Below, in pieces: positions 2,942-30,752 of a DNA stretch of 33,128 nt. This stretch comes from a virus: positions 1 to 33,128 of the IMG/VR virus record IMGVR_UViG_3300021513_000015. One strand, 5' to 3'. The notes beneath the pieces were generated by a model. The model made no database searches. It saw only the letters and a list, made by a program, of their open reading frames with translations, and was not told the DNA's origin. The stretch's first letter is position 1; each line of letters opens with the position of its first letter. The position numbers were made by a program, and so were the translations under genes.

Positions 2942-3068
2942 AATCTTCCTCCTTTGGCAGCCTGACGTTCTTGTGACAGTCGGGGCATGCCACCCATGCG
3001 GGGTAATGTTTCGAGCCTTTGTAGTCCCATTCGCGTCCGCATTCAGGGTTCGTGCATTTCAGCTTCAT
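2928..3068 (-). CDS. Small rubredoxin-like zinc ribbon protein
   Basis: A 46-residue protein with two zinc knuckles, CTNPECGREW near the start and CPDCHKN 24 residues later, the usual geometry of a zinc ribbon. Such mini-ribbons are common in viral genomes as nucleic-acid or protein-binding modules. It overlaps the 3' end of the small-terminase-like gene by 26 bp in another frame and the next gene by 14 bp. Its own codons carry the next gene's GGAGGAAG site. Confidence 0.65.
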   Translation of the reverse strand: MKLKCTNPECGREWDYKGSKHYPAWVACPDCHKNVRLPKEEDYEQQ

Positions 3069-3552
3069 TGATAGTATTATTATCAACGGGGATACTTAAA
3101 CTTTCCGGCTCATCGGCATCCTGGTTGGGGCTGATGTCGATGGTAGGTGGCTCTGGTTTCGAGGAGTCGGGAAGAACAAACTCGATCTGCACATTCTGCT
3201 CAATGTCCTGCGTGGTTTGCTCGCCCATGAGAGATCGCAGTTCCTTGATCAGCATGACAAGGTCTTTTGTGTTCTTTGGGGTAATGTCTTTTGCGGCTTG
3301 AATCTTCTCCCAGAGCATGTTGAAGATCATGAGCCGTATCTCTTTCCAGTCATCTTCCATCTTTTGCTGGATGTCCTGGATGAGTGCTTCGTTGCGTTTA
3401 CGGAGACGGGAGTCCCAGTTGTATTTTGTGCTCCATAATTTGACTGTAGATTGCGCCACCCCCAGCTCTTGTGCAGTCTGTGCGTAACTGCGGTTCACAA
3501 AGTATATCTCAAACGCTTGCAACTGTTGGGGAGATTCCGGTGCCGCTGGCAT
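3043..3552 (-). CDS. Terminase small subunit-like protein (second copy)
   Basis: A 169-residue protein. Residues about 20-45 (SYAQTAQELGVAQSTVKLWS) form a helix-turn-helix, followed by a W-D-x-R segment and helices ending in ELRSLMGE. This order matches the small terminase at 12937, whose equivalent segments are SLAKVAQKFGVSETSINKWN and EARSIMGE. The two are clearly paralogous. The C-terminal third is acidic and disordered and differs between them. TerS proteins recognise DNA and guide TerL, but this copy sits in the leftward operon next to the helicase, so it may instead act as a DNA-binding regulator. Leaderless expression is plausible, as CTTTTTAA lies about 30 nt before the ATG. Confidence 0.7.
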   Translation of the reverse strand: MPAAPESPQQLQAFEIYFVNRSYAQTAQELGVAQSTVKLWSTKYNWDSRLRKRNEALIQDIQQKMEDDWKEIRLMIFNMLWEKIQAAKDITPKNTKDLVMLIKELRSLMGEQTTQDIEQNVQIEFVLPDSSKPEPPTIDISPNQDADEPESLSIPVDNNTINEAEMHEP

Positions 3553-6050: not shown

Positions 6051-6317
6051 ATGACTAAAATACAAGTGGACATACCTGACGCATGGTTGGATGACCTCAG
6101 AAGAATCTTCGATAAGCGTGTCGGAAGCACAGAGATACCTATTGCGAACTGCCACTTGGTTCGGTGGTGTGTTGAGCAGTATAGGAAAGGCGCTTCTTTA
6201 GGAACTTCGGAGGACATTCCAGAAACTCATGAGGCACACGAAGAGACTCCATACAATCCGGAAGATGACATTCCGATAGATGAATGGATGGAGATGCGAA
6301 GAACCGAAAACCTTTGA
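6051..6317 (+). CDS. Ribbon-helix-helix-like DNA-binding protein
   Basis: An 88-residue protein. The N-terminus (MTKIQVDIPDAWLDDLRRIF) has a short strand of alternating residues, then a helix with Leu spacing, as in CopG/Arc-type proteins. The second half is acidic and probably disordered. GAGGG lies about 10 nt before the ATG. Tandem 11-bp repeats just upstream suggest it controls its own promoter; it may also bind the nearby heptamers. The RHH assignment rests on pattern only. Confidence 0.55.
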   Translation: MTKIQVDIPDAWLDDLRRIFDKRVGSTEIPIANCHLVRWCVEQYRKGASLGTSEDIPETHEAHEETPYNPEDDIPIDEWMEMRRTENL

Positions 6318-9585: not shown

Positions 9586-9770
9586 GTCTTGGGCATTCCA
9601 GCTTTCGTGGCATCTGACAGCTTTTATATTTCAAATTTTTTAAAATCCCCGCCGGTCTTGGGCATTCCAGAACCATTTCATCTTGACATCTTTATATTTT
9701 CAAAATCAAAAAACTGGTGCTGGCTTGGACATTCCAGGATCGCTCCCTTCTGACATTTTTTTCGCATTTG
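9586..9770 (+). repeat. Three periodic repeats with TATA-like tails
   Basis: GTCTTGGGCATTCCAG is present at 9586 and 9655, and GGCTTGGACATTCCAG at 9722, periods of 69 and 67 nt. Copies 1 and 2 are followed after 10-12 nt by a TGACA-CTTTATATTTT-like tail; copy 3 keeps TCTGACATTT. The interval is constant but its sequence is not. This is not a CRISPR array. It may be three tandem promoters, an iteron set or an array of small RNAs. Confidence 0.55.
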
Positions 9771-12916: not shown

Positions 12917-12936
12917 TTAGTTAAGTGAAGTTAACC

Positions 12937-13386
12937 ATGAAGGAACAACCACGACACGTTGCCGCATACGAGTTTTACCGCGACATGCCAAAACGGAGTT
13001 TAGCGAAGGTTGCACAAAAGTTTGGTGTGTCCGAAACTTCGATCAACAAGTGGAATAAGGCGTTCAACTGGCAGGAACGAGTCATGCTGCACGATCAGGA
13101 GGTGCAGAAAGGCGTACGAGAAAAGATGATGCCAGAATGGATTGAGACGAAAGCATATCTCCTGAAAGTTGCGCTGGAGCAAGTCAAGAAGGGGCGGGAT
13201 GCAGGGGTGATCCCGTCTTCCACGCGAGATATGATGGCGGCGATTAAGGAGGCTCGCTCAATCATGGGCGAGACGGATAAAGTCGAAATCACAGGATCAT
13301 TCCAACACGAAATAACTGCTGATCCCGACGTTTTGAAAACTGCGAACGAACTGGCACGAAAACTATCGCGTAATAAAGATGTATGA
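12937..13386 (+). CDS. terS: Terminase small subunit
   Basis: A 149-residue protein. It carries a helix-turn-helix at about residues 22-43 (SLAKVAQKFGVSETSINKWN), then a W-x-E-R segment and a helical oligomerisation region, as in PBSX-type small terminases. It lies directly before the large subunit and overlaps it by 8 bp. It recognises viral DNA and passes it to TerL at the portal. I chose ATG 12937 as a leaderless start; GTG 12925 is an alternative. A paralogue is encoded at 3043-3552. Confidence 0.8.
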   Translation: MKEQPRHVAAYEFYRDMPKRSLAKVAQKFGVSETSINKWNKAFNWQERVMLHDQEVQKGVREKMMPEWIETKAYLLKVALEQVKKGRDAGVIPSSTRDMMAAIKEARSIMGETDKVEITGSFQHEITADPDVLKTANELARKLSRNKDV

Positions 13387-14761
13387 ACCCGTAACCCCTG
13401 CTCTCTTTGCGATCACTGCCAGCCGTGGTAGATGGCAGGCGGCAGATCATCTTTTAATGCTCTCCGATAAATTGGTGCAAATAGCGGCTGGCAAACTTAA
13501 GCGATTAATGGTTTTTATGCCGCCCCGCCATGGGAAGTCAGAGATGATCAGCAAGTACTTTCCGGCGTGGTATCTTGGACATCACCCAGATCACAGGATC
13601 ATCCTGTCGAGCTACGAGGCAGATTTTGCAGCATCGTGGGGGTGGAAAGCGCGTAACATCATCGAAGAGTATGGTAGAGATATCTTCGGCATCTCGGTGG
13701 CTTCGGATTCGTCCGCGCGTAACCGGTGGGATATCGCGAATCATGACGGAGGCATGAACACCGCAGGGGCAGGGGGCCCGATCACTGGGAAGGGTGCGCA
13801 TCTGTTCCTAATCGATGATCCTATTAAGAATTCCGAAGAAGCGCACAGTGAAGTTAAGCGAGATAAGTTATGGGAATGGTACCAGAGTACAGCGTACACC
13901 CGGCTTGAGCCAGAGGGCGCGATTATCCTAATCCAGACACGTTGGCATCAGGATGATCTTGGAGGGCGGTTATTGAACGAGATGGAACGTGGTGGGGAAC
14001 AGTGGGAAGTTCTGAACTTTCCAGCAATTGCGGAAGAAAACGATATACTCGGGCGCAAGATTGGCGATCCGCTCTGGAGTGAACGGTATAACCTCCAATC
14101 GCTTGAAAATATCCGGGAGACCGTTGGACAATATTATTGGTACGCGATGTATCAGCAATCTCCGTATACCAAGACCGGGGGCATGTTCGAGCGCGCATGG
14201 TTCGAGATCGTTGACACCGTGCCCCCCGGACGACAGGTGCGTTTCTGGGATTTGGCTGCAACCGAAGCGAAACAAGGCAGCGATCCAGACTGGACGGTGG
14301 GCGTGCTGATGGTTGAATCAAGTGGTTCGTATTACATCAAGGACGTGGTTCGTGTCAGGAAGAAACCAGGAGATGTAGAGGCGCTCATCAAACAGACAGC
14401 ACAGATGGACGGCATCGAGACACAAATCTATATGGAGCAGGAACCAGGATCATCAGGAAAAGGTGTGATTGCCACGTACGCCAAACTCCTTTCCGGATAT
14501 GCATTCTACGGCGTTCCGAGCACAGGCAGTAAGATGGTTCGAGCGCAACCATTGAGCGCAGCAGCATCGAGAGGTGATGTCAAAGTCGTGAATGCGGTGT
14601 GGTTGAACGCGTTCTTATCGGAACTCGAATTGTTTCCGAACGGCGCGCATGATGATCAGGTGGATGCCGCCGCCGGAGCATTCTTGCAGCTCAATGCCCC
14701 CAATGAAATTGTCGATCTCTCCGACACATTTGAGGGGTACTTCGTGAACTCGCGCGGATAG
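13379..14761 (+). CDS. terL: Terminase large subunit
   Basis: A 460-residue protein with the full TerL set. Walker A lies at residues 48-54 (PPRHGKS), Walker B at 142-147 (LFLIDD), and a coupling motif around QTRWH. The RNase-H-like nuclease has acidic residues at D291 (FWDLAATE), E353/E355 (EQEPGSSGK) and D425-D429 (HDDQVDA). It pumps DNA into the prohead and cuts it. Length is normal for the family. It identifies the element as a tailed virus of the HK97/Caudoviricetes lineage. The portal gene usually follows directly; here about 3.5 kb of CRISPR-type genes intervene. Confidence 0.95.
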   Translation: MYEPVTPALFAITASRGRWQAADHLLMLSDKLVQIAAGKLKRLMVFMPPRHGKSEMISKYFPAWYLGHHPDHRIILSSYEADFAASWGWKARNIIEEYGRDIFGISVASDSSARNRWDIANHDGGMNTAGAGGPITGKGAHLFLIDDPIKNSEEAHSEVKRDKLWEWYQSTAYTRLEPEGAIILIQTRWHQDDLGGRLLNEMERGGEQWEVLNFPAIAEENDILGRKIGDPLWSERYNLQSLENIRETVGQYYWYAMYQQSPYTKTGGMFERAWFEIVDTVPPGRQVRFWDLAATEAKQGSDPDWTVGVLMVESSGSYYIKDVVRVRKKPGDVEALIKQTAQMDGIETQIYMEQEPGSSGKGVIATYAKLLSGYAFYGVPSTGSKMVRAQPLSAAASRGDVKVVNAVWLNAFLSELELFPNGAHDDQVDAAAGAFLQLNAPNEIVDLSDTFEGYFVNSRG

Positions 14762-14778
14762 AAGTTTCCTAAAAAATA

Positions 14779-14826
14779 GATGCGGCTGCTAAACGAATTT
14801 GGAGCCATCCAAAACCAAACCGCATC
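14779..14826 (+). ncRNA. Two-stem RNA element in the csf leader
   Basis: GATGCGG at 14779-14785 pairs with CCGCATC at 14820-14826. Within it TTTGGA-GCCA-TCCAAA at 14798-14813 forms an inner hairpin. The inner hairpin contains repeat copy 1. The shape suggests a regulatory RNA or a small guide-like RNA. Confidence 0.45.
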
Positions 14827-14881
14827 CATAGTTTTATGTGATGTACTCTCTAATAAGGATATTGCTAAACGAATTTGGAGC
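14787..14881 (+). repeat. 19-nt direct repeat pair upstream of csf1
   Basis: TGCTAAACGAATTTGGAGC occurs at 14787-14805 and again at 14863-14881, with 57 nt between. The second copy holds the GGAG ribosome binding site of csf1. The repeat is shorter and the interval longer than in CRISPR arrays, and only two copies exist, so it is better read as a regulatory repeat. I saw no further copy in the window. Confidence 0.65.
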
Positions 14882-14888
14882 GTATTAG

Positions 14889-15548
14889 ATGACACTTCCA
14901 ACAGAGCTAATATATCGAGCAGCAGGATCACTTACAATTGAAACTGAACCCGCAGACAGCATTTGTGCTGTATGCGGAAAAGAGATCAGCGAGGGTATAC
15001 CGATCAAAAAAGTGATGAGTAACTCGTTCACGGATTGGAATTTCCTCGCAGACATGACTGCATCACACGTTTGCGCTGCGTGTACCTGGTGCATCAAAGA
15101 GCCAAAGATGCGGCGATCACAGTATATCGCAACAGAGAACGAATTACTCTATTTCAAGCGAGAGGACATAGAGACATATCTATTTGATCCACCAGAGCCG
15201 CCATTTGTGTTTTTTGTCACAGCCTCATATAAAAAACACGGGTCGTTCCGGGCACGGGTAAATGATTCGCGACATCTTTTTTACATCCAGTTCGAGGATC
15301 GGCAAATACTTTTTAGTCCGAATAAGTACCGAGAACTGTTCAATACGATGAAACGAATGTACACGGTATTTAACAAGATGAAAGAGATTGCGAGAGGTGA
15401 TTACATTCAGAAACGAGTGATGGAGTATGGTCTACAAAAATGGAGGGAAGACGAAGAGATTCTTAAGCAATACAGGGGCTCGCAAGTCTTTGAATTGTTG
15501 TTATACGCGCTGAACAAACCAGAAGAGGCGAAAAATGATCGAATGTGA
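14889..15548 (+). CDS. csf1: Csf1, type IV-B CRISPR large-subunit-like protein
   Basis: A 219-residue protein. A zinc module with C26/C29 (CAVCG) and C62/C65/C68 (CAACTWC) is separated by a loop holding SFTDWNFLADMTASHVC. The pair of Cys clusters around an SFTDW segment is the hallmark of Csf1 (Cas8-like) in type IV systems. The rest is helical. The gene stands first in the order csf1-cas11-csf2-csf3-cysH, the known IV-B order. The RBS lies inside a 19-nt repeat. In the complex, Csf1 is expected at the 5' end of the bound RNA. Confidence 0.8.
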   Translation: MTLPTELIYRAAGSLTIETEPADSICAVCGKEISEGIPIKKVMSNSFTDWNFLADMTASHVCAACTWCIKEPKMRRSQYIATENELLYFKREDIETYLFDPPEPPFVFFVTASYKKHGSFRARVNDSRHLFYIQFEDRQILFSPNKYRELFNTMKRMYTVFNKMKEIARGDYIQKRVMEYGLQKWREDEEILKQYRGSQVFELLLYALNKPEEAKNDRM

Positions 15549-15921
15549 AATACTTGACGAACATCTTAGGGAACATGCCGTAACGCTCATTAATAGTGTG
15601 TGGCACGGTATCAACTGGGACAACGTAAGCAGTCGGCGGAGAATGCGCATATATGACGAATTCACGAATAAGATTCGCAGCGCAGCACACGCAGGACGTA
15701 TAAGCAAGTTCTACGACAAACTCTGTCGTAGCATGGACAGCACCCCCTCGGAGATGTGGGGGATGAACGCGCTGAAGACGATCAAAGACATCGAAGAGAA
15801 CAAGTACGATCTCGATATCCTTGAGTTAATTCTCAGCGAAACACAGTATCTCGTATTACTGATGCGAGAACAAAACGATGAGCTGAAAACAGACAGAAAA
15901 CAGCAGAAACTAGGAGTATAA
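15535..15921 (+). CDS. cas11: Cas11-like small subunit of type IV-B
   Basis: A 128-residue all-helical, charged protein between csf1 and csf2, overlapping csf1 by 14 bp. Cas11 sequences are poorly conserved, so the call rests on position, size and predicted helicity. In IV-B complexes Cas11 packs along the Csf2 filament. GAGGCG precedes the ATG. Confidence 0.65.
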   Translation: MIECEILDEHLREHAVTLINSVWHGINWDNVSSRRRMRIYDEFTNKIRSAAHAGRISKFYDKLCRSMDSTPSEMWGMNALKTIKDIEENKYDLDILELILSETQYLVLLMREQNDELKTDRKQQKLGV

Positions 15922-15923
15922 TT

Positions 15924-16859
15924 ATGTACGAGAGAATAGAAGGAATAATTGAGGCACAAGAGCCGATCAGCCACATCGGCGAGACATTGAGCACCGTTGC
16001 ACAGTTCAAACGAGAGAAGACCTTATTCCGCGGGAAAATCATCGAAATTCCGGTGGTCAGCGGCAATGCGCTCCGCGGGATCATGCGCAGGCGGGGATCG
16101 TATCATCTCATGAAGATGCTCGGTATCCGGAAAGAAATGCTTGGCGAGGATGTGCAGCACGCTCTCTTCAGTGGCGGAATGCTCAAGAAAGGCGCAGGTG
16201 GAGGAACGATCGATATGAACTTCATCAAGGAACTCAGGACGATGCTGCCGCTCATGAGCGTGTTCGGCACCACAATCGGACAGCAGATGATTGGCGGCAA
16301 GCTCGATGTCGGGCAGCTCATACCGATCTCCTGCCAGACGGTGCAACGGACTGGCATCGAGAGCGATATAAGCATCCACAGCCTGCTCGATGAAGTATCG
16401 CACACCCGTAGGGACGACATGGAGGATCGCACAAAAGGAATCGACACAGACGATCAGAAACAGCAGATGAGGTATCAGACCGAGGTGCTGGCAGCCGGAA
16501 CGCAATTCAGCCACTACTTCACTCTGAAGGACTGCAGCGATCTGGAGAGAGGCGCGTTCATGAGCACCCTCTATCAGTTCATGCAGTATCCGAAGATCGG
16601 AGGCATGGGAGGGCGAGGCTTTGGCATGATTAAGATGGACTATGTGGTAGATGAGTCCGCGGTCGAGATGTATGAGACATGGGTCAGCGAGAACGCAGAG
16701 CAAATCCGGGCATATCTTACCACACTCGACTATGTAGGCGAGTCAAAGACGGGGAAAGCGAAAAAACTCCAAAATGTGCCGCTCTCTGGTACACCAATAT
16801 CGCATTATGCAAAGGGCGAGTACAAACGTGAAAGTACTGGGAACTCGATGAAACTATGA
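15924..16859 (+). CDS. csf2: Csf2 (Cas7-like backbone protein)
   Basis: A 311-residue RAMP-superfamily protein. The N-terminal segment VVSGNALRGIMRRRG (about 44-58) has the G-x-x-L-R-G pattern of RNA-binding Cas7 proteins. A glycine-rich loop, KIGGMGGRGFGMIK, occupies about 224-237. Length is as expected for Csf2. It would polymerise along a short RNA as the backbone of the IV-B complex. GGAG precedes the ATG. It overlaps csf3 by 4 bp, so the two are translationally coupled. Confidence 0.85.
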   Translation: MYERIEGIIEAQEPISHIGETLSTVAQFKREKTLFRGKIIEIPVVSGNALRGIMRRRGSYHLMKMLGIRKEMLGEDVQHALFSGGMLKKGAGGGTIDMNFIKELRTMLPLMSVFGTTIGQQMIGGKLDVGQLIPISCQTVQRTGIESDISIHSLLDEVSHTRRDDMEDRTKGIDTDDQKQQMRYQTEVLAAGTQFSHYFTLKDCSDLERGAFMSTLYQFMQYPKIGGMGGRGFGMIKMDYVVDESAVEMYETWVSENAEQIRAYLTTLDYVGESKTGKAKKLQNVPLSGTPISHYAKGEYKRESTGNSMKL

Positions 16860-17551
16860 TTCACATATCAGAACTCGATGAATACGAAGGGCACATCAGC
16901 GGAATCCCCCACGAGCCGATGAAGGTCACTTTTGAGATGCGGTCGTCGGTGGTGACGACCGATTACATCTTTTTAGATGGGCTGATCTCTTCAGCAGTGT
17001 TCAAGGATTGTGTGCCGAATTATTATGATATACCGGAGAATCGCAATGAACTGATCCACATCCCGCTCCCGCTAAAGCAGTATGGAACGAAAGAGCCATT
17101 CTATGCCGCAAGCATCGGGTTCGCGGATAAGATCGTTGAAGGCATCGATCACTGGCGTAAGCGCACTGAAATCGAGAGCAAGAAGAAGATCCAGGTTGGT
17201 AGCGGACAGTACAAGATGTACGACATGCCGATGCCGACCATGTGGGCAGAATCCTGGATATTCTATGCGAATGGCAACGCCGACGAAGTGCGGCGGCTTT
17301 TGACAACTCATATCAGCGCAATTGGTAAGAAGTGCTCGCAAGGATTCGGGGCTGTTAAAAGTATCACAGTCGAGCCGTCGGCGCACGACTGGAGTGTGGT
17401 CAAGGACGGCGTGCCAATGCGCCCGATACCCGTGAGCGGCGCATACGGATCCAGCCTTGATTGCGATGTCAAGATGTACTACGCGTACCGACCGCCATAT
17501 TGGCATCGACTGAACATGACACAATGCTATATGCCGATGTGCAGAGTATGA
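16856..17551 (+). CDS. csf3: Csf3 (Cas5-like protein)
   Basis: A 231-residue RAMP protein with a glycine-containing loop at about 158-170 (KKCSQGFGAVKSI) typical of Cas5/Csf3. An aromatic-rich C-terminus follows. Cas5-type subunits cap the 5' handle of the guide RNA. It follows csf2 with an ATGA overlap and is followed by cysH with another ATGA overlap, so the five genes form one transcript. Confidence 0.8.
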   Translation: MIHISELDEYEGHISGIPHEPMKVTFEMRSSVVTTDYIFLDGLISSAVFKDCVPNYYDIPENRNELIHIPLPLKQYGTKEPFYAASIGFADKIVEGIDHWRKRTEIESKKKIQVGSGQYKMYDMPMPTMWAESWIFYANGNADEVRRLLTTHISAIGKKCSQGFGAVKSITVEPSAHDWSVVKDGVPMRPIPVSGAYGSSLDCDVKMYYAYRPPYWHRLNMTQCYMPMCRV

Positions 17552-18297
17552 ACCCAGAAACCCAACGAAAGGCTGATCTGCTTCATGCAAGAACGCAAGA
17601 ATATCAAACTGTAGTCGCATCTGCAAAACAAACGATCTATCACGCTTTGCAGCACATGAAAAACCCGTATGTGAGTTTTTCAGGCGGGAAAGACAGCCTC
17701 GTAATGCTGCACCTCGTCCTCGAACAAAAACGAGTCCCCGTAGTGTATTGGGATGCTGATGCAAGCAATCCCGATACAGAAAATTTTCTGGAACTGATCG
17801 TAGATAAATGGGATCTGGATATGATCCGATTCAAGACAGAATCGATGATGAGCGTATTTCGGAAATACGGAATCAACCATCCAAAAATCGAAGAGAAGAC
17901 CATGCTTGCAACAGTATACCGCCCGATCAAGAAATTGATGCGGGATTATGATTTTGACGGTGTTTTTGTGGGCTTAAGGGAAGAAGAGAGTTTCGGCAGG
18001 CGGCAGTTGATCCGACATAAAGGATCGGTATTCTGGAATAAATCACAAGGCATATTAGAATGTCTGCCCGTGGCATATTTTTCAGTGCAGGATATCTGGG
18101 CATATATCACATCGCATGATTTGCCATATAATGCAGTATATGATCGGCAATCCCTCCCACGAAACGAGATTCGTGTAAGTTACTGGTGTGGTGAGAGCGC
18201 AAGGGAATTCGGGCGGTTTGTGTGGCTCAAAAAAGAATATCCTGATCTATATAATAAGTTCGCGGCAGAATTTCCAGAAGTACGGGAATGGTGTTGA
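17548..18297 (+). CDS. cysH: CysH-like PAPS-reductase family protein of type IV-B
   Basis: A 249-residue protein with the PP-loop SGGKDS at residues 45-50, followed by helix LVMLHLVLEQK and the pattern VVYWDADASNPDT, as in the adenine-nucleotide alpha-hydrolase/PAPS reductase family. The catalytic Cys motif of true sulfate reductases is not evident; WCGESAREFG near the end is the nearest. A cysH-like gene is the standard companion of type IV-B CRISPR loci; its activity there is unknown. The start overlaps csf3 as ATGA; longer in-frame starts from 17461 are rejected. Confidence 0.85.
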   Translation: MNPETQRKADLLHARTQEYQTVVASAKQTIYHALQHMKNPYVSFSGGKDSLVMLHLVLEQKRVPVVYWDADASNPDTENFLELIVDKWDLDMIRFKTESMMSVFRKYGINHPKIEEKTMLATVYRPIKKLMRDYDFDGVFVGLREEESFGRRQLIRHKGSVFWNKSQGILECLPVAYFSVQDIWAYITSHDLPYNAVYDRQSLPRNEIRVSYWCGESAREFGRFVWLKKEYPDLYNKFAAEFPEVREWC

Positions 18298-18343: not shown

Positions 18344-20617
18344 ATGAACATCCGGGCACTTCTACAAAAAGCGAACATCATCGGGCGCATCAACAATCTC
18401 GAGAAAGCCAGCTCGGTAAAACAACTGGATACGCGTCCGTATGGCGGGCTAACCACCTTCGAGTCGCGGCAGAAGTTCCCGATCCCGTATTATGATCATC
18501 TACGTTATCTCGCCAAGCGCAACACATCACTCCGAACGATCCATCATGTCCTGCAGGATAAGATTCTGGAGCGCGATCCGGAGTTCATTCCGCGGTTCGG
18601 CAGCAAGTGTATGGAATGCGGGAAGGAGTTCAAGAACCAGACAGACATCTGTGATTGTGGGGGGATGACACGGGAGCCGGATCAGGCACAACTAACACTC
18701 ATCAAAGAATTTTTCAAGGACTGCAACGACAACGATCAGTCCTTCAAAGCAGTGCTCCGGGAATGTGAAGACAATCTCAATACTCTCGATGATGCTTTTT
18801 TAGTTATAATCAAAAAATACTACTTCAATTCCGATAACGAGCTGACATTCTCTCAAGTTCGAGAAATCCTCTCTCTCGATCCGGAGTGGATGAACTTCGA
18901 CCTCGATGACAAGATGCGGCAGGGCACGTCTCACTGGACATGCGTTGAGCACAGGACACTCCATGATGAGGAAGGCGTCTGCCCGGAGTGTGGCAAGCCA
19001 CTGTTCCCAGTCTGGTACATCTATGACGAAGGCAGCCAGCCGATGCCATATCTGAAAGACGAGATCATCCACTGGAGCCGGTATTCACCATCCAAAACGC
19101 ATGGTTATCCTCCAGTCGCCACCGTATTCGAGGAGGCGATGATTGAGCTCAACGGGAACATCCTGCTCAACGATACCTACCGTGAGCAGCGTCCACCGAA
19201 AGGCATCCTGGCAATCGTCACCAAGAACCTCGCCAGCCTCCAGAAGTTCTGGGAGAAGGAGATGGATCGGGTACGCGTCAATCCGAACCACATGCCAGTG
19301 ATGGGCATCGAGAGCGATACCGGACGGGGCTCGGCGCAGTACACGGCGCTACTCAACTCGGTAGCCGATATGGATGTGCTGAATGTCTCGGAACGAATGC
19401 GGGAGTCGATCAGCGGACTGTACCGGATCAGTCCTATGTATCGTGGCAGCACCGAAGGAGTGGGCGGTCTGAACGCGGAGGACATCCAGCGCGCAGTCAC
19501 CGCCGAACCTGTCGCCGCGGCGCATCAGGGATATCACGAAGAAGTGTTCCCGAAACTGCTCGCCATGTTTGGGATCACCGACTGGAAACTGGAGTTCCCG
19601 TCACCGTATCCAGCAAATGACGATGCCGAACTTGACAAGCGCATGAAGGAGACACAGATCGCCACCATGATGCATGGCATGGGATTCAGCATCGATCTGG
19701 ATGATGAGACCGGGGAGTTCGTCTACAGTGGCTCGGCGCAGCCTGCGCAACCGGATATGGGTATGGGCGGGGGCGAAGATGGCGAGGACTTTGATGGGGG
19801 GGGTGGCTATCAAGACGAACTGTTATTGGGGAAAGAATTGCAGAAAGCCCGCAGGTATATCAAGAACCCCCGCGATGCGCCTCCGGGGGCGAAAGTACAA
19901 CGCGGTAAGCGCGGTGGGTATTTTTATGAAAGCACTGTGCCAAATGGCGAAAAGACGCCTGCACCCAAGAAGGCAGCACCAAAAAAACATGTTAAATCGT
20001 TAGCTGTCAAGCAAGCTAAAAAAGAAATGAACGCGCACATCGGGAAGCTCCATAAAACGATAGAAGGAAAGGCATTGCTAGACCGTGTAGAAAGTTATAC
20101 CGGTGGGGATTACAAATCATTCAATGAATATCTACGAACTGGTAAAATGGCACTCAGGGATTTGCATGGAAAGGTGCGTGTTGTTAAACCACCAAAAGCA
20201 AAGAAAGAGCAACTGGATCGACAAATAAACCAAGTAAGTGAGTTCCTTAAAACAGCTCCAAAGATAGAAGGCACGATGTATCGTGGCATGATCTGGAAAA
20301 AGGACAAAAAGCAAACAAAAGCATTTAAGGAGTTTATGGCACAGATGAAGCCAGGTGCAGAGATTACGTTCCCAACGTTCACCTCAACTTCGACTGACGA
20401 AGCTACCGCACTGGAGTTTGCCACACTTGCATCCAAAAAAGAACCTGTGCATTCGGTGGTAATCACTATGGAGCAAACCAAATCAGGCGTTTATCTGGAT
20501 GGCGCATCCGCGTTTGAAGTCGAGGACGAGGTGTTATTCGATCGGCAAAGCAAGTTTGAAGTTGTGGGCGTAGATTACAGTGAAGTCCCCATCAGGCTCA
20601 CAATCAGGGAGGTATAG
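18344..20617 (+). CDS. Portal protein fused to ADP-ribosyltransferase domain
   Basis: A 757-residue protein. Residues 1 to about 470 look like a portal, with a clip/stem region in the stretch LNDTYREQRPPKGILAIVTK and RGSTEGVGGLNAEDIQRAVT. Two zinc-ribbon-like Cys clusters are inserted (near 89-105 and 205-220). A glycine-rich linker leads to a 28-residue motif at 501-528. The C-terminal 115 residues match mono-ADP-ribosyltransferases of the R-S-E class: YRG at R647, STS at 681-683, E-x-E at E727/E729 in EDEVLF. The portal channels DNA; the extra domain could modify host proteins after injection. Twelve copies of the enzyme would sit on each virion. Confidence 0.8.
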   Translation: MNIRALLQKANIIGRINNLEKASSVKQLDTRPYGGLTTFESRQKFPIPYYDHLRYLAKRNTSLRTIHHVLQDKILERDPEFIPRFGSKCMECGKEFKNQTDICDCGGMTREPDQAQLTLIKEFFKDCNDNDQSFKAVLRECEDNLNTLDDAFLVIIKKYYFNSDNELTFSQVREILSLDPEWMNFDLDDKMRQGTSHWTCVEHRTLHDEEGVCPECGKPLFPVWYIYDEGSQPMPYLKDEIIHWSRYSPSKTHGYPPVATVFEEAMIELNGNILLNDTYREQRPPKGILAIVTKNLASLQKFWEKEMDRVRVNPNHMPVMGIESDTGRGSAQYTALLNSVADMDVLNVSERMRESISGLYRISPMYRGSTEGVGGLNAEDIQRAVTAEPVAAAHQGYHEEVFPKLLAMFGITDWKLEFPSPYPANDDAELDKRMKETQIATMMHGMGFSIDLDDETGEFVYSGSAQPAQPDMGMGGGEDGEDFDGGGGYQDELLLGKELQKARRYIKNPRDAPPGAKVQRGKRGGYFYESTVPNGEKTPAPKKAAPKKHVKSLAVKQAKKEMNAHIGKLHKTIEGKALLDRVESYTGGDYKSFNEYLRTGKMALRDLHGKVRVVKPPKAKKEQLDRQINQVSEFLKTAPKIEGTMYRGMIWKKDKKQTKAFKEFMAQMKPGAEITFPTFTSTSTDEATALEFATLASKKEPVHSVVITMEQTKSGVYLDGASAFEVEDEVLFDRQSKFEVVGVDYSEVPIRLTIREV

Positions 20618-20619
20618 TC

Positions 20620-21624
20620 ATGCCACGAGATCCCACGAAATTTCAGGCAATCCCAGAAGATTTTATCGTTACACCACCAAAACTCGAAAAGAGTATCGAA
20701 GCCAGAGCATGGGCAATTCTCGGCAGGCCTCTTGAAAAAGCCCGCAAATACATTTCCGATCCGTCACAAGCACCAAAAGGTGTCAAAGTGCAGCGCGGGA
20801 AAAAGGGCGGCTACTACTACGAGGCGGAGCCCGTGCGCACATCACTGAAGACGCAACCGGACGAAGTCAAGAGAGCGGTGAAAGACATGTATGACAAGGG
20901 CATGGATGCGAAGGCGATTGCAGACGAACTCGAAAGCGAGCATGGTGTCAAGGTGCATCCCGAGACAGTGAATCGGTTTCTTGAGCGAGAAGGTATCTCG
21001 GTTAGACCAAAACGGGAGACCGTGAGCCGCCGTGATGTCGAGGCACAGCAGAAGACGATCGAGGAGCAGGCGAAGCAGATCGAGGATATGAGTAGCAAAC
21101 TCAAAGCACTGAAGAGTGATGTGGACTTCTATAAGGAGAAATATACCGCGCTCGATAAAGAGAATGCCGCGATGAAACAGGAGATCGCCAACCTCCGGGC
21201 GATGTACGAAGCGCTGAAGAAACCAGAGGGTGGGGCAACGGAGGAGACAACACCAGAGGAGGAAAAAGAACCGGAGCCCTCGAAAATTGAAGACAAATTA
21301 GGCATGTCCGGATTGAGCGAGAATGCATCTAAAATCGTAAAAGAACTTCAGCTTGATTTTTCAGAGGTTAAACCCTCTGGAAGTGACAACAAAGGCGGAT
21401 GGAGTCCTAAACAAGAATCAGAGATGATTCATAATGTAAACCGATTTGCCACAGCCGCGAAAAAACAATATAATGAAGGCGATTTCAAAAATGCCTATCT
21501 AAATATGCGGAATTACGTGATGGCTAAAAACAGACTTATGGGCAAGCCTATTGATGAATTCGATTTAAATGATTCTCTATACGAGATTGATAAAATGATG
21601 CGGAATACTGCGAAGGAATCATGA
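20620..21624 (+). CDS. Coiled-coil virion-associated protein sharing the portal linker motif
   Basis: A 334-residue protein. Residues 40-68 (ARKYISDPSQAPKGVKVQRG, then KKGGYYYE) repeat the 28-residue motif of the portal. A resolvase-like helix-turn-helix stretch follows at about 80-125, then a long coiled coil (about 135-200), an acidic linker and a C-terminal helical domain. It follows the portal by 2 bp. It may be a scaffold, an ejected internal protein or a DNA-binding protein. It does not look like an HK97-type capsid protein. Confidence 0.6.
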   Translation: MPRDPTKFQAIPEDFIVTPPKLEKSIEARAWAILGRPLEKARKYISDPSQAPKGVKVQRGKKGGYYYEAEPVRTSLKTQPDEVKRAVKDMYDKGMDAKAIADELESEHGVKVHPETVNRFLEREGISVRPKRETVSRRDVEAQQKTIEEQAKQIEDMSSKLKALKSDVDFYKEKYTALDKENAAMKQEIANLRAMYEALKKPEGGATEETTPEEEKEPEPSKIEDKLGMSGLSENASKIVKELQLDFSEVKPSGSDNKGGWSPKQESEMIHNVNRFATAAKKQYNEGDFKNAYLNMRNYVMAKNRLMGKPIDEFDLNDSLYEIDKMMRNTAKES

Positions 21625-22280
21625 CCACAACATACTGCACCTCATCGGACGTTGCAAAACTCATCTGGCGGAACGGCGACGGATCAGACTTCAGCGCCAC
21701 CACAAACCCCACCAAGTCTTTCGTGGAAGAGCTGATCAACGCGGCGGAGGACGATATAGACAACCTCACACACCACGCATGGCGAAGCACTCTTGTGTCA
21801 GATGAAATACATGATCTGATCCTCGATCGCGTGAACTATCGGCGATGGTGGGGATACTACGGGCGGGTTCATCTGAATCACCGGAAGATCCACGAGTTCG
21901 TTAGCGACACACATAAGATCGAGATATGGGACGGCTCGAACTGGGTTGATCTGGCACTGGATGCGAACGGATACACTGAAGGACGTGATGAGGACTACTG
22001 GATCGACTACGAGAAAGGTATCATCTACTTCGTGAACACGTACCCCCATGTGGTTCAAGAGGCAGTCAAAGTGACCTACGCTTATGGCGACACCGTTGTT
22101 CCCAGCGACATCAAACTTGCATGTATGAGAATGGTCGCCATCGATCTGGCGATGCAGGATGATCGCAGTGTGCTCCTGCCGGAAGGATCGGATAACATCC
22201 GGCAGCCGAATAAAGTCGAGATATGGCAGGCGGCAGTCGAGAAAACGCTCGAAAAGTATATGGAGATTGTGTCGGTGTAA
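21621..22280 (+). CDS. Head-tail connector protein, gp6-like
   Basis: A 219-residue protein. The N-terminal helices (TSSDVAKLIWRNGDG, then FVEELINAAEDDIDNLTHHA) match the head-completion adaptors of the HK97 gp6/SPP1 gp15 type. The middle holds beta strands (IEIWDGSNWVDL, GIIYFVNTYP) and the end a helix. Such proteins form the ring below the portal. It overlaps the previous gene by 4 bp. Confidence 0.75.
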   Translation: MTTTYCTSSDVAKLIWRNGDGSDFSATTNPTKSFVEELINAAEDDIDNLTHHAWRSTLVSDEIHDLILDRVNYRRWWGYYGRVHLNHRKIHEFVSDTHKIEIWDGSNWVDLALDANGYTEGRDEDYWIDYEKGIIYFVNTYPHVVQEAVKVTYAYGDTVVPSDIKLACMRMVAIDLAMQDDRSVLLPEGSDNIRQPNKVEIWQAAVEKTLEKYMEIVSV

Positions 22281-22281
22281 A

Positions 22282-22458
22282 TCAAATATTTCCAAGAACC
22301 AACATAATTGCGTTTGTAAGTTCTTCATCCGTATCAAATATCTCATCCTCGACACCATGAAGGATTATACACGTTTCATTAAAATCGTCTGCAATCATAT
22401 CATGTCTGCGATCATTCCCAACATTAGGACGTGTTATTTCAATCCGATCTATCTTCAT
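22282..22458 (-). CDS. Small acidic protein in an antisense accessory pair
   Basis: A 58-residue acidic protein (MKIDRIEITRPNVGNDRRHD...) encoded against the direction of the structural genes. GAGGTGA precedes the ATG. It is downstream of a winged-helix gene in the same orientation, so the two form a small operon. Function is unknown. Confidence 0.6.
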   Translation of the reverse strand: MKIDRIEITRPNVGNDRRHDMIADDFNETCIILHGVEDEIFDTDEELTNAIMLVLGNI

Positions 22459-22485
22459 TCAATCACCTCGATCGTGAAATCTACA

Positions 22486-22878
22486 TCATGCACCACCGGG
22501 GACGCTGTATGCGCACTTGGAGATAAGTCTCACCTCTAATACACCCCAATCATCCACCTTATAATCTAACTCTTTAAGCACTAATTCTTTCGCTTCGCTC
22601 TTCGTTTCGGCGATTGCGAACGCCAGCCCACCGGTGTAATCCGGACTAAAATCAGTCCATACAAACAGTTTCAACTCACCTGTGCCATACGATCCGTTCT
22701 TGATCCGGTACAGATTTCCACGCGGCTCTCGAACGATTTCCACCGTCCCTTCGGTGGCGAGTTCGTTCACCACGCGGCGCACGTATTCCTGGGTGTAATG
22801 CAACTCTTCCGCGAGTTTGCGGCTATTGTCGCATCCGGAAGCGATTGCTCGCGTGATGTCTTCTTTTGCTGTCATCAT
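22486..22878 (-). CDS. Winged-helix transcription regulator, moron-like
   Basis: A 130-residue protein. Residues about 5-45 (KEDITRAIASGCDNSRKLAE then ELHYTQEYVRRVVNELATEG) are a helix-turn-helix, followed by a wing (TVEIVREPRGNLYRI). The C-terminal 70 residues form a mixed domain that could bind a ligand. It lies antisense within the tail-gene cluster with its own promoter, like the morons of bacterial prophages that stay active in lysogeny. The tandem ATGs at 22878 and 22875 are both possible, with AGGA just upstream. Confidence 0.7.
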   Translation of the reverse strand: MMTAKEDITRAIASGCDNSRKLAEELHYTQEYVRRVVNELATEGTVEIVREPRGNLYRIKNGSYGTGELKLFVWTDFSPDYTGGLAFAIAETKSEAKELVLKELDYKVDDWGVLEVRLISKCAYSVPGGA

Positions 22879-22886
22879 GTTCCTAT

Positions 22887-22908
22887 ATCGTGACGATGGT
22901 ATTTAAAT
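22887..22908. promoter_or_regulatory. Divergent promoter with TATTTAAATA palindrome
   Basis: GGTATTTAAATATACC is nearly self-complementary around TATTTAAATA and reads as a TATA box on both strands. It lies between the antisense regulator and the rightward tail gene. The palindrome could also be the regulator's operator. Confidence 0.5.
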
Positions 22909-22959
22909 ATACCGCCGCCAAAAAGTTAATCAGTTAGTCAGTCAGTCAAGGTGAATTTA

Positions 22960-23379
22960 ATGGAACACGATGTCGTGCAGATCACAGTCGATCTGCTAAA
23001 TGACAACTGGAACGCTGCCAATGTCAGTAAACCTACAATCGGGATAAGCGAGGATATAAAGCGGCTCGATCTCAACAATAAAGACGGGATCATTGTTTAC
23101 GAAACGGGTCCGAAACTCCGTGAAAAAGGAAATCTCTTTTATTCAGTCGAGGATTTGAATTCATTCGTTTCTATCGACATCCGAACCATCAAAAACAGAA
23201 CGCGGCTTTACGATCTCATCACCGAAGTGGATCGAATCCGGACACTAAAACGCAACGATCCACATACTGACTGGCATACTATCTATCACCTCCGCAGCAC
23301 CCCATTCACGAACAAACACACTCTCCTGTGGCGTGAGGTTGTGGAATGGCGGTTTGTCAGGAGGAAGGTGAGTTTATGA
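22960..23379 (+). CDS. Tail completion/terminator-like protein
   Basis: A 139-residue protein starting MEHDVVQITVDLLNDNWNAA. It has an N-terminal helix, beta strands and a C-terminal strand after TPFTNKHTLLWREVVEWRF. Size, fold pattern and position between connector and tail tube fit a tail-completion protein. Sequence identity to a named family was not recognised. AAGGTGAA is the Shine-Dalgarno site for ATG 22960; GTG 22951 lies inside it. Confidence 0.5.
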   Translation: MEHDVVQITVDLLNDNWNAANVSKPTIGISEDIKRLDLNNKDGIIVYETGPKLREKGNLFYSVEDLNSFVSIDIRTIKNRTRLYDLITEVDRIRTLKRNDPHTDWHTIYHLRSTPFTNKHTLLWREVVEWRFVRRKVSL

Positions 23380-23380
23380 G

Positions 23381-23398
23381 TTTAAGTTATAACTTGAA
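23381..23398. repeat. GTTATAAC palindrome, copy 2
   Basis: TTTAAGTTATAACTTGAA, centred on GTTATAAC with one mismatch in the arms. It sits right after the tail completion stop codon and 15 bp before the next ATG, as with the other copies near gene starts. Confidence 0.55.
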
Positions 23399-23413
23399 AA
23401 CGAGGATACGCGT

Positions 23414-23590
23414 ATGAAACTACGAAACACAACGGGAGAAGGGCGCAAGATATGTGACGAAGATCGCTGCATACTCGTTGGCAACGGCGAGGAGTTCGAG
23501 GTCTCTGACAATCTTGGCAAAGAACTGATCAAACAGGGATTCTCGGCGATTAAACCGGAATCATCAACAACTAAAGGAGGCAAAGACTAA
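23414..23590 (+). CDS. Small hypothetical protein before the tail tube gene
   Basis: A 58-residue protein (MKLRNTTGEGRKICDEDRCI...). The central part (LVGNGEEFEVSDNLGKELIK) resembles the short beta/alpha domain of small phage head or tail decoration proteins. Its stop overlaps the tail tube start, and its last codons (AAAGGAGG) are that gene's Shine-Dalgarno site. A palindrome lies just upstream. Confidence 0.6.
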   Translation: MKLRNTTGEGRKICDEDRCILVGNGEEFEVSDNLGKELIKQGFSAIKPESSTTKGGKD

Positions 23591-24579
23591 TGGCGGAAGG
23601 CTCTTTGATTTACAGGCCAAATTTGGCACAACTGACGTGGGCAGAGGAGTCGTCTTTCAATGAAACGCCGACTCAAGGCGCACAGACGACACCGTTTGGG
23701 GTGATCGATGAGGAAGTCCGGCTTCCCGATCCAGAGATAAATTACTTCGCGCACCGGAATATCGGGGATGGTGCAGATATCTCTATCGTCACCCCTGGTG
23801 CGAGAACACTATCCGGCAGCATCCCCTTCCTTGTACAGAACGGGAAGATACTTGCGATGATGCTCGGTAGTTGTAACACCACTGGAACAGGTCCCTACAC
23901 ACATACCATCACTGGAGCGCAGATACTTCCGAGTATGTGCATCGAAGCAGTGATGAATGACGGTACGAACGATTTCCTGAGATATTTCCGGGGCGTCAAG
24001 ATATCTGGTGGCAGGCTATCGGCAGAGGAGGAAGGCGAACTGAAGGCAACGATCGATATCGAGGCGGCTCTGGCAGAGGCAAGCTCGAATACCAAATCCA
24101 CTCTCGCGGCAGTCACGACAAAACCATACGCATTTCATCAAGGCACATGTAGCTTCTGGGGCACGACATTCGCCCGCGTCCTGAACTGGTCGATCGACAT
24201 CAAGCGATCTGTGAAGCCGCGCAGGTACATCCAGAGCACAAATGGTGCATTTCCGTATGAGATCAACGAGGGAGCGCGTGATATCGAACTATCGGCAACG
24301 ATCGTAGCGGCAGATGATCTCGGTACTGGAACACACGGCACGGAAGCGATGGAAGAACTGCTATCCCCAACAGCAGCCGGATTCGATGTGTCATTGGTTC
24401 TGACTCGTGACACAAACGATACAATCACGATCTCGAATCCAACTGCTCAGAAGTGCCATCTGAAATCCGCTCCACACCCGCTTGGAACAGGCGAAGACTC
24501 TCCGATATCGCTTTCGATACTGATGAAAGGCGTGGAGATCACGGTTATAGATTCGATCTCAAGTTATCCTGCGGAATAG
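23590..24579 (+). CDS. Major tail tube protein
   Basis: A 329-residue protein. The N-terminus (AQLTWAEESSFNETPTQGAQ) has the pattern of tail tube proteins, where a conserved W-x-E-E-x-x-F/Y-N/G-T-x-P follows a short lead. TLSGSIPFLVQNGKILAMML and repeated strand pairs fit two tail-tube-like barrels. Position before the chaperone and tape-measure genes supports the call. A tube protein of this length suggests an extra domain. Confidence 0.75.
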   Translation: MAEGSLIYRPNLAQLTWAEESSFNETPTQGAQTTPFGVIDEEVRLPDPEINYFAHRNIGDGADISIVTPGARTLSGSIPFLVQNGKILAMMLGSCNTTGTGPYTHTITGAQILPSMCIEAVMNDGTNDFLRYFRGVKISGGRLSAEEEGELKATIDIEAALAEASSNTKSTLAAVTTKPYAFHQGTCSFWGTTFARVLNWSIDIKRSVKPRRYIQSTNGAFPYEINEGARDIELSATIVAADDLGTGTHGTEAMEELLSPTAAGFDVSLVLTRDTNDTITISNPTAQKCHLKSAPHPLGTGEDSPISLSILMKGVEITVIDSISSYPAE

Positions 24580-24589
24580 AGGTGAACCA

Positions 24590-24979
24590 ATGGAACAAGA
24601 CGTATTACCAATCGGGACAGACGAAAACGAGTTGTACGCAGATCAGAATGAGCGGATAGTCGTCATCCCATACAAAGGTAAGCGGTGGGAGTTCACTGTC
24701 CGCGACCTGACGTGGGCGGAACACCAGACCATTGCCTCGAAGATGGCACGGATGCGGATGGGCGGCAAAGGTGCGACAGACGCGATGGTGGACATACTCG
24801 AAGGCAATATTGCGTATCTCCTGAAAGCGATCGTCAAAGCACCGTTCCCACTGACCCGCGCATCGTTTCTACGGCTCGACAAGGAATTCGGGCGATTGCT
24901 TGTGCAATACATCATCGAGAATAACCCCGCGGAGGCTGAAGAAAAAAACTCCGAGCAGCCATCAGAGGACTCCCGGTAG
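24590..24979 (+). CDS. Tail assembly chaperone, short form (gpG-like)
   Basis: A 129-residue protein between tail tube and tape measure, the fixed place of the chaperones G and GT. It is mixed strand then helical (TVRDLTWAEHQTIASKMARM), ending in an acidic tail. GAGGTG precedes the ATG. Near its end lies A AAA AAC, a slippery heptamer in the right frame for a -1 shift, see the longer product. Confidence 0.75.
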   Translation: MEQDVLPIGTDENELYADQNERIVVIPYKGKRWEFTVRDLTWAEHQTIASKMARMRMGGKGATDAMVDILEGNIAYLLKAIVKAPFPLTRASFLRLDKEFGRLLVQYIIENNPAEAEEKNSEQPSEDSR

Positions 24980-29535: not shown

Positions 29536-30752
29536 TGGCTATGAATGTACAATTCGATGAGGTTTTTGAACATGTGATGATGAATGCTGTCATTGCCGCG
29601 TGTGAGGGCAATGGTGTTCTGGACGGGCTTGCGGTAAGCGAAAGAGGCGCAGGCGCAAACATGAGCGTGGATGTTGCTGCGGGCAACTGTATGATAGACG
29701 GCACGAAGTATACTGAAAGCAGCACCGTGAATCTCGCCATCTCCGCGGCAGATGCCACTTATGATCGTAAGGACTTGGTGACGTATGATTCCAACACATC
29801 CAATCCGATCGTAACTACCGGTACAGCGGCAGCAACTCCCGAGCCGCCAGACATTCCCTCCGGCAATATACTACTCGCTATCATAGACGTGACAGCAGGA
29901 GCGACACAGATCACAAATGCAGATATCACGGACGGAATAGTTATTACATTAGAATCATGGTATGATGCCGACACGGTGGATGGTTACGATGCTGGCAATT
30001 CATCCGGACAAGTGGCGGTTAGCAATGGTACGGTATGTACTAATCTTAACGCCGATACAGTGGATGGGTATCATGCTGGAAACTCGTCCGGACAAGTTGC
30101 AGTTAGTAATGGCACACTGTGCACCAATCTTAATGCTGACAAGGTGGATGGTTGTGATGCGGGCGCTGCAGCTGGAAATGTGCTGAAAGTACCAGATTAT
30201 ACCTCTGGTTATATACTATACAGTCATACTGGTTTCGGAACGAATTGGCTCGCTCCCGGGACGGATGGCTATCAATTAACGACACATGGTGCATCGGCAA
30301 ATCCAACATGGTCAGCCGCATCCGATCTCATCTTTTCTGATACTCACTGTCCGAAGTGTGGCAAAAGATTCGAGACGGGAGACACACTTGTCTTATACGT
30401 AGTCGGTCACAACGAAGTCGGTGACACACTCACGATCCCGATGCATAAGGATTGCGCTGAAGCACCGAAGAAGACAGTCACGATCAAACGAAAAGTGTTC
30501 GAAGATCGACATATCCTCGACGAGTTAACTGGCAAGACAAAGATACAACGAGTGCAAAAGACACAGAAGAAGACCGTTACGAAACACAAACTAAAAGAAG
30601 GATACGAACTCGATCACAAAACTGGTAAAGCGATTAAGATCAACAAAGACGGCTCGAAGGACGAAACACAATATGATCTCTCAATCGCCCTCGAAACAGT
30701 GGAAGAGACAATTGACGAACCAGTCTACGAAGACGTGGAATATGAGATATGA
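29535..30752 (+). CDS. Tail fibre protein with 28-residue repeats
   Basis: A 405-residue protein. Residues about 145-215 hold two full and one partial copy of a 28-residue repeat containing DTVDGYHAGNSSGQVAVSNG. The DNA copies are exactly 84 bp apart (29967, 30051, 30135). DTVDG(Y/F)-A repeats are common in receptor-binding fibres. The C-terminal 140 residues hold a zinc-ribbon-like CPKCGKRF and a lysine-rich, charged tail. The N-terminus would attach to the baseplate. Repeat number may change by recombination, altering host range. Confidence 0.75.
   Translation: MAMNVQFDEVFEHVMMNAVIAACEGNGVLDGLAVSERGAGANMSVDVAAGNCMIDGTKYTESSTVNLAISAADATYDRKDLVTYDSNTSNPIVTTGTAAATPEPPDIPSGNILLAIIDVTAGATQITNADITDGIVITLESWYDADTVDGYDAGNSSGQVAVSNGTVCTNLNADTVDGYHAGNSSGQVAVSNGTLCTNLNADKVDGCDAGAAAGNVLKVPDYTSGYILYSHTGFGTNWLAPGTDGYQLTTHGASANPTWSAASDLIFSDTHCPKCGKRFETGDTLVLYVVGHNEVGDTLTIPMHKDCAEAPKKTVTIKRKVFEDRHILDELTGKTKIQRVQKTQKKTVTKHKLKEGYELDHKTGKAIKINKDGSKDETQYDLSIALETVEETIDEPVYEDVEYEI

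Follow-up and report, generated by a model that had tools for sequence, protein, structure and literature searches.

What would a virus gain from an RNA-binding CRISPR complex encoded among its virion genes? This question is raised by a virus record of IMG/VR, IMGVR_UViG_3300021513_000015, which was analysed over its whole length of 33128 bases and is called the window below. An earlier note, made from the sequence alone, had described in it five genes for a type IV-B CRISPR (clustered regularly interspaced short palindromic repeats) effector, including a cysH gene, lying between the terminase and portal genes of an archaeal virus. We asked whether these genes are what they seem and what their products may do.

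Five adjoining genes form a type IV-B effector operon

The five tightly coupled genes, csf1, cas11, csf2, csf3 and a cysH-like gene, were all found (Table 1). They are co-directional, either overlap or are separated by at most 2 nt, and fill positions 14889-18297. The end of the span proposed in the earlier note (14762-18297) is correct; its start is not, since 14762-14888 is a 127-nt gap outside csf1. The PADLOC profiles matched Csf1 (Csf1_0_IV, E 7.9e-54), Cas11 (Cas11_1_IV, E 9.9e-35), Csf2 (Csf2_0_IV, E 4e-74) and Csf3 (Csf3_0_IV, E 5.2e-58), and the CysH-like protein matched Pfam PAPS_reduct (E 2.1e-23), all five values being far past chance level. Matches to the NCBIfam type IV models, such as that of Csf1 to TIGR03114 (1.1e-24), fell under the curated cut-offs, as would fit proteins that have diverged from the reference set. 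The motifs that had been quoted are present: CxxC pairs around SFTDW in Csf1, GGMGGRGFG in Csf2, QGFG in Csf3 and SGGKDS in the CysH-like protein. The profile search, which had been set beforehand as a refutation test, thus returned Csf-family matches, and the finding survives it.

The second check concerned the fold of the csf2 and csf3 products, expected to be that of repeat-associated mysterious proteins (RAMP), and it was passed as well. AlphaFold models of Csf2 and Csf3 (predicted local distance difference test scores of 83 and 84) matched solved type IV subunits: the top Foldseek match of Csf2 was the type IV-B complex (7jhy, E 2.4e-12), and those of Csf3 were type IV-A Csf3 (8rc3 Csf3, E 1.6e-12). 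By sequence, Csf2 matched the type IV-B Csf2 of 7jhy with phmmer (E 7.7e-17) and the Csf3 profile matched solved Csf3 at about 1e-20. As modelled, both proteins have the expected type IV folds.

The assignment to type IV-B is sound. We considered the possibility of a type IV-A system, but DinG helicase, Cas6/Csf5 and an array are absent from the operon. No adaptation gene, Cas6, DinG or HD-Cas10 was found within it, nor did any of the other proteins scanned give such a match. It combines csf1, csf2 and csf3 with a cas11-like gene and a cysH-like gene lacking the reductase cysteine, and it has no adaptation, Cas6 or DinG gene and no recognisable array, as is usual for type IV-B. Among the window proteins scanned, nothing convincing matched other PADLOC defence genes. 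We regard it as virtually certain that the five genes make up a whole effector operon of the canonical type IV-B CRISPR kind.

Table 1. Coordinates of the operon, the repeat pair in front of it and the flanking genes, in positions of the window.
Feature	Position	Strand	Description
csf1	14889..15548	+	type IV large subunit (Cas8-like), two CxxC pairs, 219 aa
cas11	15535..15921	+	small helical subunit, 128 aa
csf2	15924..16859	+	Cas7-like backbone subunit, 311 aa
csf3	16856..17551	+	Cas5-like subunit, 231 aa
cysH-like gene (CasCysH)	17548..18297	+	PP-loop ATPase family, 249 aa from ATG
19-nt direct repeat, copy 1	14787..14805	+	TGCTAAACGAATTTGGAGC; non-coding gap upstream of csf1
19-nt direct repeat, copy 2	14863..14881	+	GGAG within = likely csf1 ribosome-binding site
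Terminase large subunit	13379..14761	+	left flank; phrog_38, E 1e-98
Portal protein	18344..20617	+	right flank; phrog_18178, E 5e-39

The CysH-like protein lacks the reductase motif

The likely start of the cysH-like gene is the ATG at 17548, in an ATGA overlap with the csf3 stop; the start at 17461, used in the list of open reading frames (ORFs), is a TTG codon within csf3 and was set aside. When 23 CysH-like proteins from type IV-B loci were aligned, the PP-loop (S-x-G-K-x-S) and a G-x-R-x-x-E...R segment proved to be conserved, and the window protein retains the former as SGGKDS. The ECGxH motif of 3'-phosphoadenosine 5'-phosphosulfate (PAPS) reductases was found in none of the 42 CysH-like proteins scanned, the window protein included. 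The lack of this catalytic motif near the C-terminus speaks against an auxiliary metabolic gene for PAPS reductase (CysH). Since the PP-loop is kept but ECGxH is absent, the protein is, to judge from its sequence, probably not a sulfate-assimilation enzyme, and it would be better called a PP-loop ATPase partner of the complex. This is consistent with the literature on type IV-B, in which the missing cysteine of CysH was noted and an ATP alpha-hydrolase chemistry proposed (PMC8175902). Nearly all type IV-B operons compared contain a cysH-like gene, and within the 42-protein set the nearest relatives of the window protein are encoded in viral type IV-B operons (99/99 support).

Type IV-B operons recur on viral contigs and other mobile elements

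Single-sequence searches of IMG/VR with Csf2 and CysH found no close relatives, and an alignment had to be used as query to reach relatives of Csf2, on 24 IMG/VR contigs and three genome contigs. With iterated profiles, csf1-cas11-csf2 accompanied by csf3 and cysH, in either order, was found around nearly all of them, and the operon was also found in seven plasmid or phage records, including Skermania phage SPI1. The order csf1-cas11-csf2 is repeated at about 30 independent loci. Three related viral contigs (L090, L096 and L097) have the operon 3.4-4.1 kb upstream of the terminase gene and on the same strand; in three others (L100, L110 and L113) it is far from the terminase.

Five of the 394 sampled Halobacteriota genomes gave a match to the Csf2 profile at 1e-10. 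One of these loci, L134 (G304:C191), has a full type IV-B-like set of cas11, csf2, csf3, csf1 and two cysH-like genes, while L137 (G207:C83), in an mcrA-bearing genome, has only csf2, with an internal stop, and csf3. L135 and L136 encode a larger csf1-like protein and have no cysH, and L138 resembles type III. The type IV-B carriers seen are all mobile elements or short contigs.

In the csf1, csf2 and csf3 trees the window stands on the side of the haloarchaeal and Thermococcus loci. For Csf2 this placement is favoured, though a grouping with the main viral set was not rejected (approximately unbiased test, p 0.33). Because CysH groups with the viral set, the operon may be a mosaic. The nearest related virus contig, L003, with a terminase 90% identical to that of the window, has a different gene after the terminase and no operon there, and no type IV-B genes were found in the flanks of the nearest terminase relatives (L003-L082). 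In vir524 the terminase gene runs directly into the next gene of the virion region. As L003 has no operon after its terminase and vir524 is uninterrupted at this place, the type IV-B cassette looks like movable cargo.

The operon is carried by an archaeal tailed virus, probably of a methanogen

The placement between terminase and portal genes was confirmed by phrog_38 on the left and phrog_18178 on the right, and relatives of both proteins agree with an archaeal virus. In the phage collection the portal has 11 relatives, every one of them from an archaeal tailed virus (Haloarcula, Methanomassiliicoccales, Methanofastidiosa). Among named viruses, the best match of the terminase was vir524 (47%), whose host is a member of the Methanomicrobiales. 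Related terminases, with identities of up to 56%, were present in 14 Halobacteriota genomes, of which 13 had an mcrA match, 12 of them over the curated cut-off. Bacterial phages have related terminases too (up to 44%), so that the portal is the stronger evidence on the host. Because the portal relatives are archaeal and related terminases occur in mcrA-bearing genomes, the host is likely an archaeon, and probably a methanogen. The terminase, portal and tail genes, all related to those of archaeal viruses, identify the virus by homology as an archaeal tailed virus (Caudoviricetes). No major capsid protein was recognised among the proteins scanned in the head region (18344-24979); the protein is either highly diverged or missing from an incomplete record.

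Several further features were seen in the window. The C-terminal stretch of the portal protein (aa 535-746) matches ADP-ribosyltransferase and head-maturation-protease families, an apparent portal fusion. There are two terminase-small-subunit-like proteins, encoded at 12925-13386 (+) and at 3043-3552 (-), the latter far from the terminase and on the opposite strand. Positions 9586-9761 contain three near-tandem copies (period 69 and 67) with the unit core CTTGGRCATTCCAG, within a stretch of about 650 nt that is rich in A/T tracts and has no convincing genes; these are possibly replication-origin iterons or operators. A 15-mer of these repeats had 56 single-copy matches in IMG/VR, about the chance expectation. 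Finally, an 84-nt tandem repeat (2.2 copies, 29967-30151) within a tail/baseplate-like gene encodes repeated peptide blocks.

Comparison with described type IV-B loci

The earlier note is right that most reports of type IV-B loci concern plasmids, but this is not the whole picture, given the 24 IMG/VR contigs, Skermania phage SPI1 and a tailed virus of Bathyarchaeia, Fuxivirus ('Fuxiviridae'), in which a type IV-B/CysH locus was described in 2024 (PMC10848311). Compared by its description, Fuxivirus resembles the window: it too is a tailed virus of archaea, about 32 kb in size, and it has csf1, cas11, csf2, csf3 and a CysH-like gene but no adaptation module. Its locus comprises genes 1-5, away from the terminase and portal (genes 27-28), whereas the window operon lies between these two, and it includes a mini-array made up of two repeats with one spacer, whereas no array is recognisable in the window. 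Fuxivirus is a direct precedent, and the window operon is not new in kind. What is new is that the virus belongs to another group, that the operon lies between terminase and portal, that no array is recognisable and that a wider range of viral contigs is seen to have such operons.

Skermania phage SPI1, a sequenced isolate, has the five genes in identical order (orf40-44, L085 4831-8464), but it is a bacterial phage, its operon adjoins ribonucleotide reductase rather than the terminase-portal region, and the products are annotated as hypothetical proteins. The plasmid-borne Csf complex of Mycobacterium sp. JS623 (PDB 7jhy, PMC7937560) also has csf1-cas11-csf2-csf3, without array or Cas6. Its Csf2 matches that of the window by sequence and fold, although it is bacterial and distant, as the phmmer E-value given above indicates. 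Haloarchaeal and Thermococcus loci (L083, L084, L086, L087) share the gene order of the window; yet they are on plasmids, some have the CysH-like gene several genes off, and their Csf2 is only about 30% identical to that of the window. Type IV genes, namely csf2, csf3 and csf4, were also reported on a viral contig that a CRISPR spacer ties to a methanogen (PMC9723712). No adjoining cas11 or cysH was reported on it, so it is not a complete type IV-B operon, and it also resembles a deltaproteobacterial prophage.

What the complex may do for the virus

The components of the system are read from the sequence, and every later step of its mechanism we infer. The operon would be cargo, a cassette in the genome of a tailed archaeal virus whose host is probably a methanogen. 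The solved type IV-B complex is built on a heterogeneous population of small RNAs and lacks a subunit for target cleavage (PMC7937560). By homology to it, a short RNA would be bound along a helical filament of Csf2 and Cas11; Csf3 would sit at one end, and Csf1 would serve as the large subunit. Because there is no nuclease, the complex would bind rather than cut. Its RNA would not be supplied by the virus but captured from the cell, in the form of host CRISPR RNAs (crRNAs) or other small RNAs, a working principle for which the case is evenly balanced. The PP-loop of the CysH-like protein would let it spend ATP on modifying the bound RNA, a target or a small molecule, by adenylylation or in another way, and the protein would not reduce PAPS. 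The least certain step is the benefit to the virus, which may lie in countering defences or in competing with other mobile elements while the virus infects its host. We propose this purpose tentatively, at slightly under an even chance; the restriction of the carriers to mobile elements and short contigs is as expected for an inter-element role (PMC11656645). The uses suggested in the earlier note, against rival elements, in control of host RNA, timed with late expression or in modifying a guide or signal, are conjectural, and ideas similar to them have appeared in the literature on type IV-B (PMC8175902). Taken jointly, the identity of the operon, an RNA-binding complex and a role in conflict form a reading that could equally well prove right or wrong.

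Several points weigh against this reading. An RNA sponge alone leaves the conserved CysH-like gene unexplained. Csf1 and Csf3 were not resolved in the type IV-B structure (PMC7937560), so that a true guide specificity may have been missed. The 19-nt repeat pair in front of csf1 keeps a self-encoded guide formally possible, and the Fuxivirus locus does carry a mini-array (PMC10848311).

The best-placed alternative is that the complex borrows guides from host arrays and represses competing viruses or plasmids, a mobile immunity that would aid the resident virus. For type IV-B systems that lack an array, the use of host crRNAs has been suggested before (PMC8175902); type IV-A acts on plasmid genes by repression and not by cleavage (PMC11656645), and the Cas7 filament exposes its RNA for base pairing (PMC7937560). 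Yet the only type IV-B complex whose RNA was sequenced did not enrich co-expressed crRNAs (PMC7937560), and we consider this explanation unlikely, though credible.

We also considered the possibility that RNA capture is only a targeting step, by which the filament brings the CysH-like ATPase to nucleic acid of the virus or the host, which is then modified, so as to protect the viral genome or alter expression. The presence of the CysH-like gene in nearly all these operons and the conservation of the PP-loop and of the R/E/R residues would fit such a role, ATP-dependent modification is a published hypothesis (PMC8175902), and the location among late genes would put the ATPase near packaging. 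This location by itself, however, proves no timing, the catalytic cysteine of DndC-type enzymes is absent, and no modified nucleic acid is known, all of which makes marking distinctly unlikely.

The repeat pair upstream of csf1 is more simply read as a duplicated leader or operator

A guide of the virus's own is the third alternative. The 19-nt pair would then be a one-spacer mini-array whose interior directs the complex against a rival element or to a gene of the host, as might be thought from the two repeats and one spacer at the Fuxivirus locus (PMC10848311). The two copies are exact, start 76 nt apart, enclose 57 nt and are unique in the record, and the repeat exceeds the length of every repeat in Markov nulls. 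The repeat is, however, shorter and the interior longer than the CRISPR norm, and there is no Cas6. No CRISPR array is recognisable in the record, which has only this two-copy repeat and a three-copy 14-nt core 5 kb away, and no Rfam RNA was found in it. The 19-mer has no other copy in IMG/VR and, in repeat and spacer matching for which host CRISPR arrays were only sampled, no match in the 394 Halobacteriota genomes at 0-1 mismatch; at 2 mismatches there were six single-copy matches, and a reversed-pattern control gave a similar number. At 30 of 34 other csf loci there was no exact direct repeat of at least 14 nt at array-like spacing, and the 19-nt sequence of the window was present at none of the 34. 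The gap sequence had no match in phages or plasmids, and the longest match of the interior to the rest of the window was 11 nt. Since copy 2 holds the likely ribosome-binding site of csf1, a duplicated leader or operator is a simpler account of the pair than a mini-array. We consider a guide of the virus's own very improbable. Still less is to be said for the variant in which a type IV-B complex with its own guide cassette is made together with the head genes and has its effect late, on nucleic acid that is packaged or has just been replicated, and not in plasmid-style competition.

Two further observations concern the sequence in front of csf1. A 53-codon ORF (14780-14941, MRLLNEFGAIQ...) crosses the gap and overlaps the start of csf1. 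L109 has an exact 19-nt direct repeat (GGGCTCGGCTGGGCAAGGC, spacing 45, 6241-6304) in a stretch between ORFs, some 700 nt upstream of its csf1; this is a possible one-spacer mini-array in another virus-borne type IV-B locus.

The different gene that follows the terminase in L003 might suggest an assembly artefact, in which a plasmid or host type IV-B operon was misjoined into a viral contig, but this is hardly tenable in view of the GC content of the operon genes (0.43-0.53), near that of other window genes, the shared strand and tight spacing on both sides, the relationship of the CysH-like gene to virus-borne type IV-B copies (99/99) and the other viral contigs that hold the operon within about 4 kb of the terminase.

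Implications

Type IV-B, a CRISPR derivative that binds RNA, is usually discussed as a plasmid system. Its occurrence in the assembly region of another archaeal virus and on two dozen viral contigs suggests that it benefits mobile elements in general. Skermania phage SPI1, with the same five genes, is a tractable isolate in which type IV-B can be put to the test.

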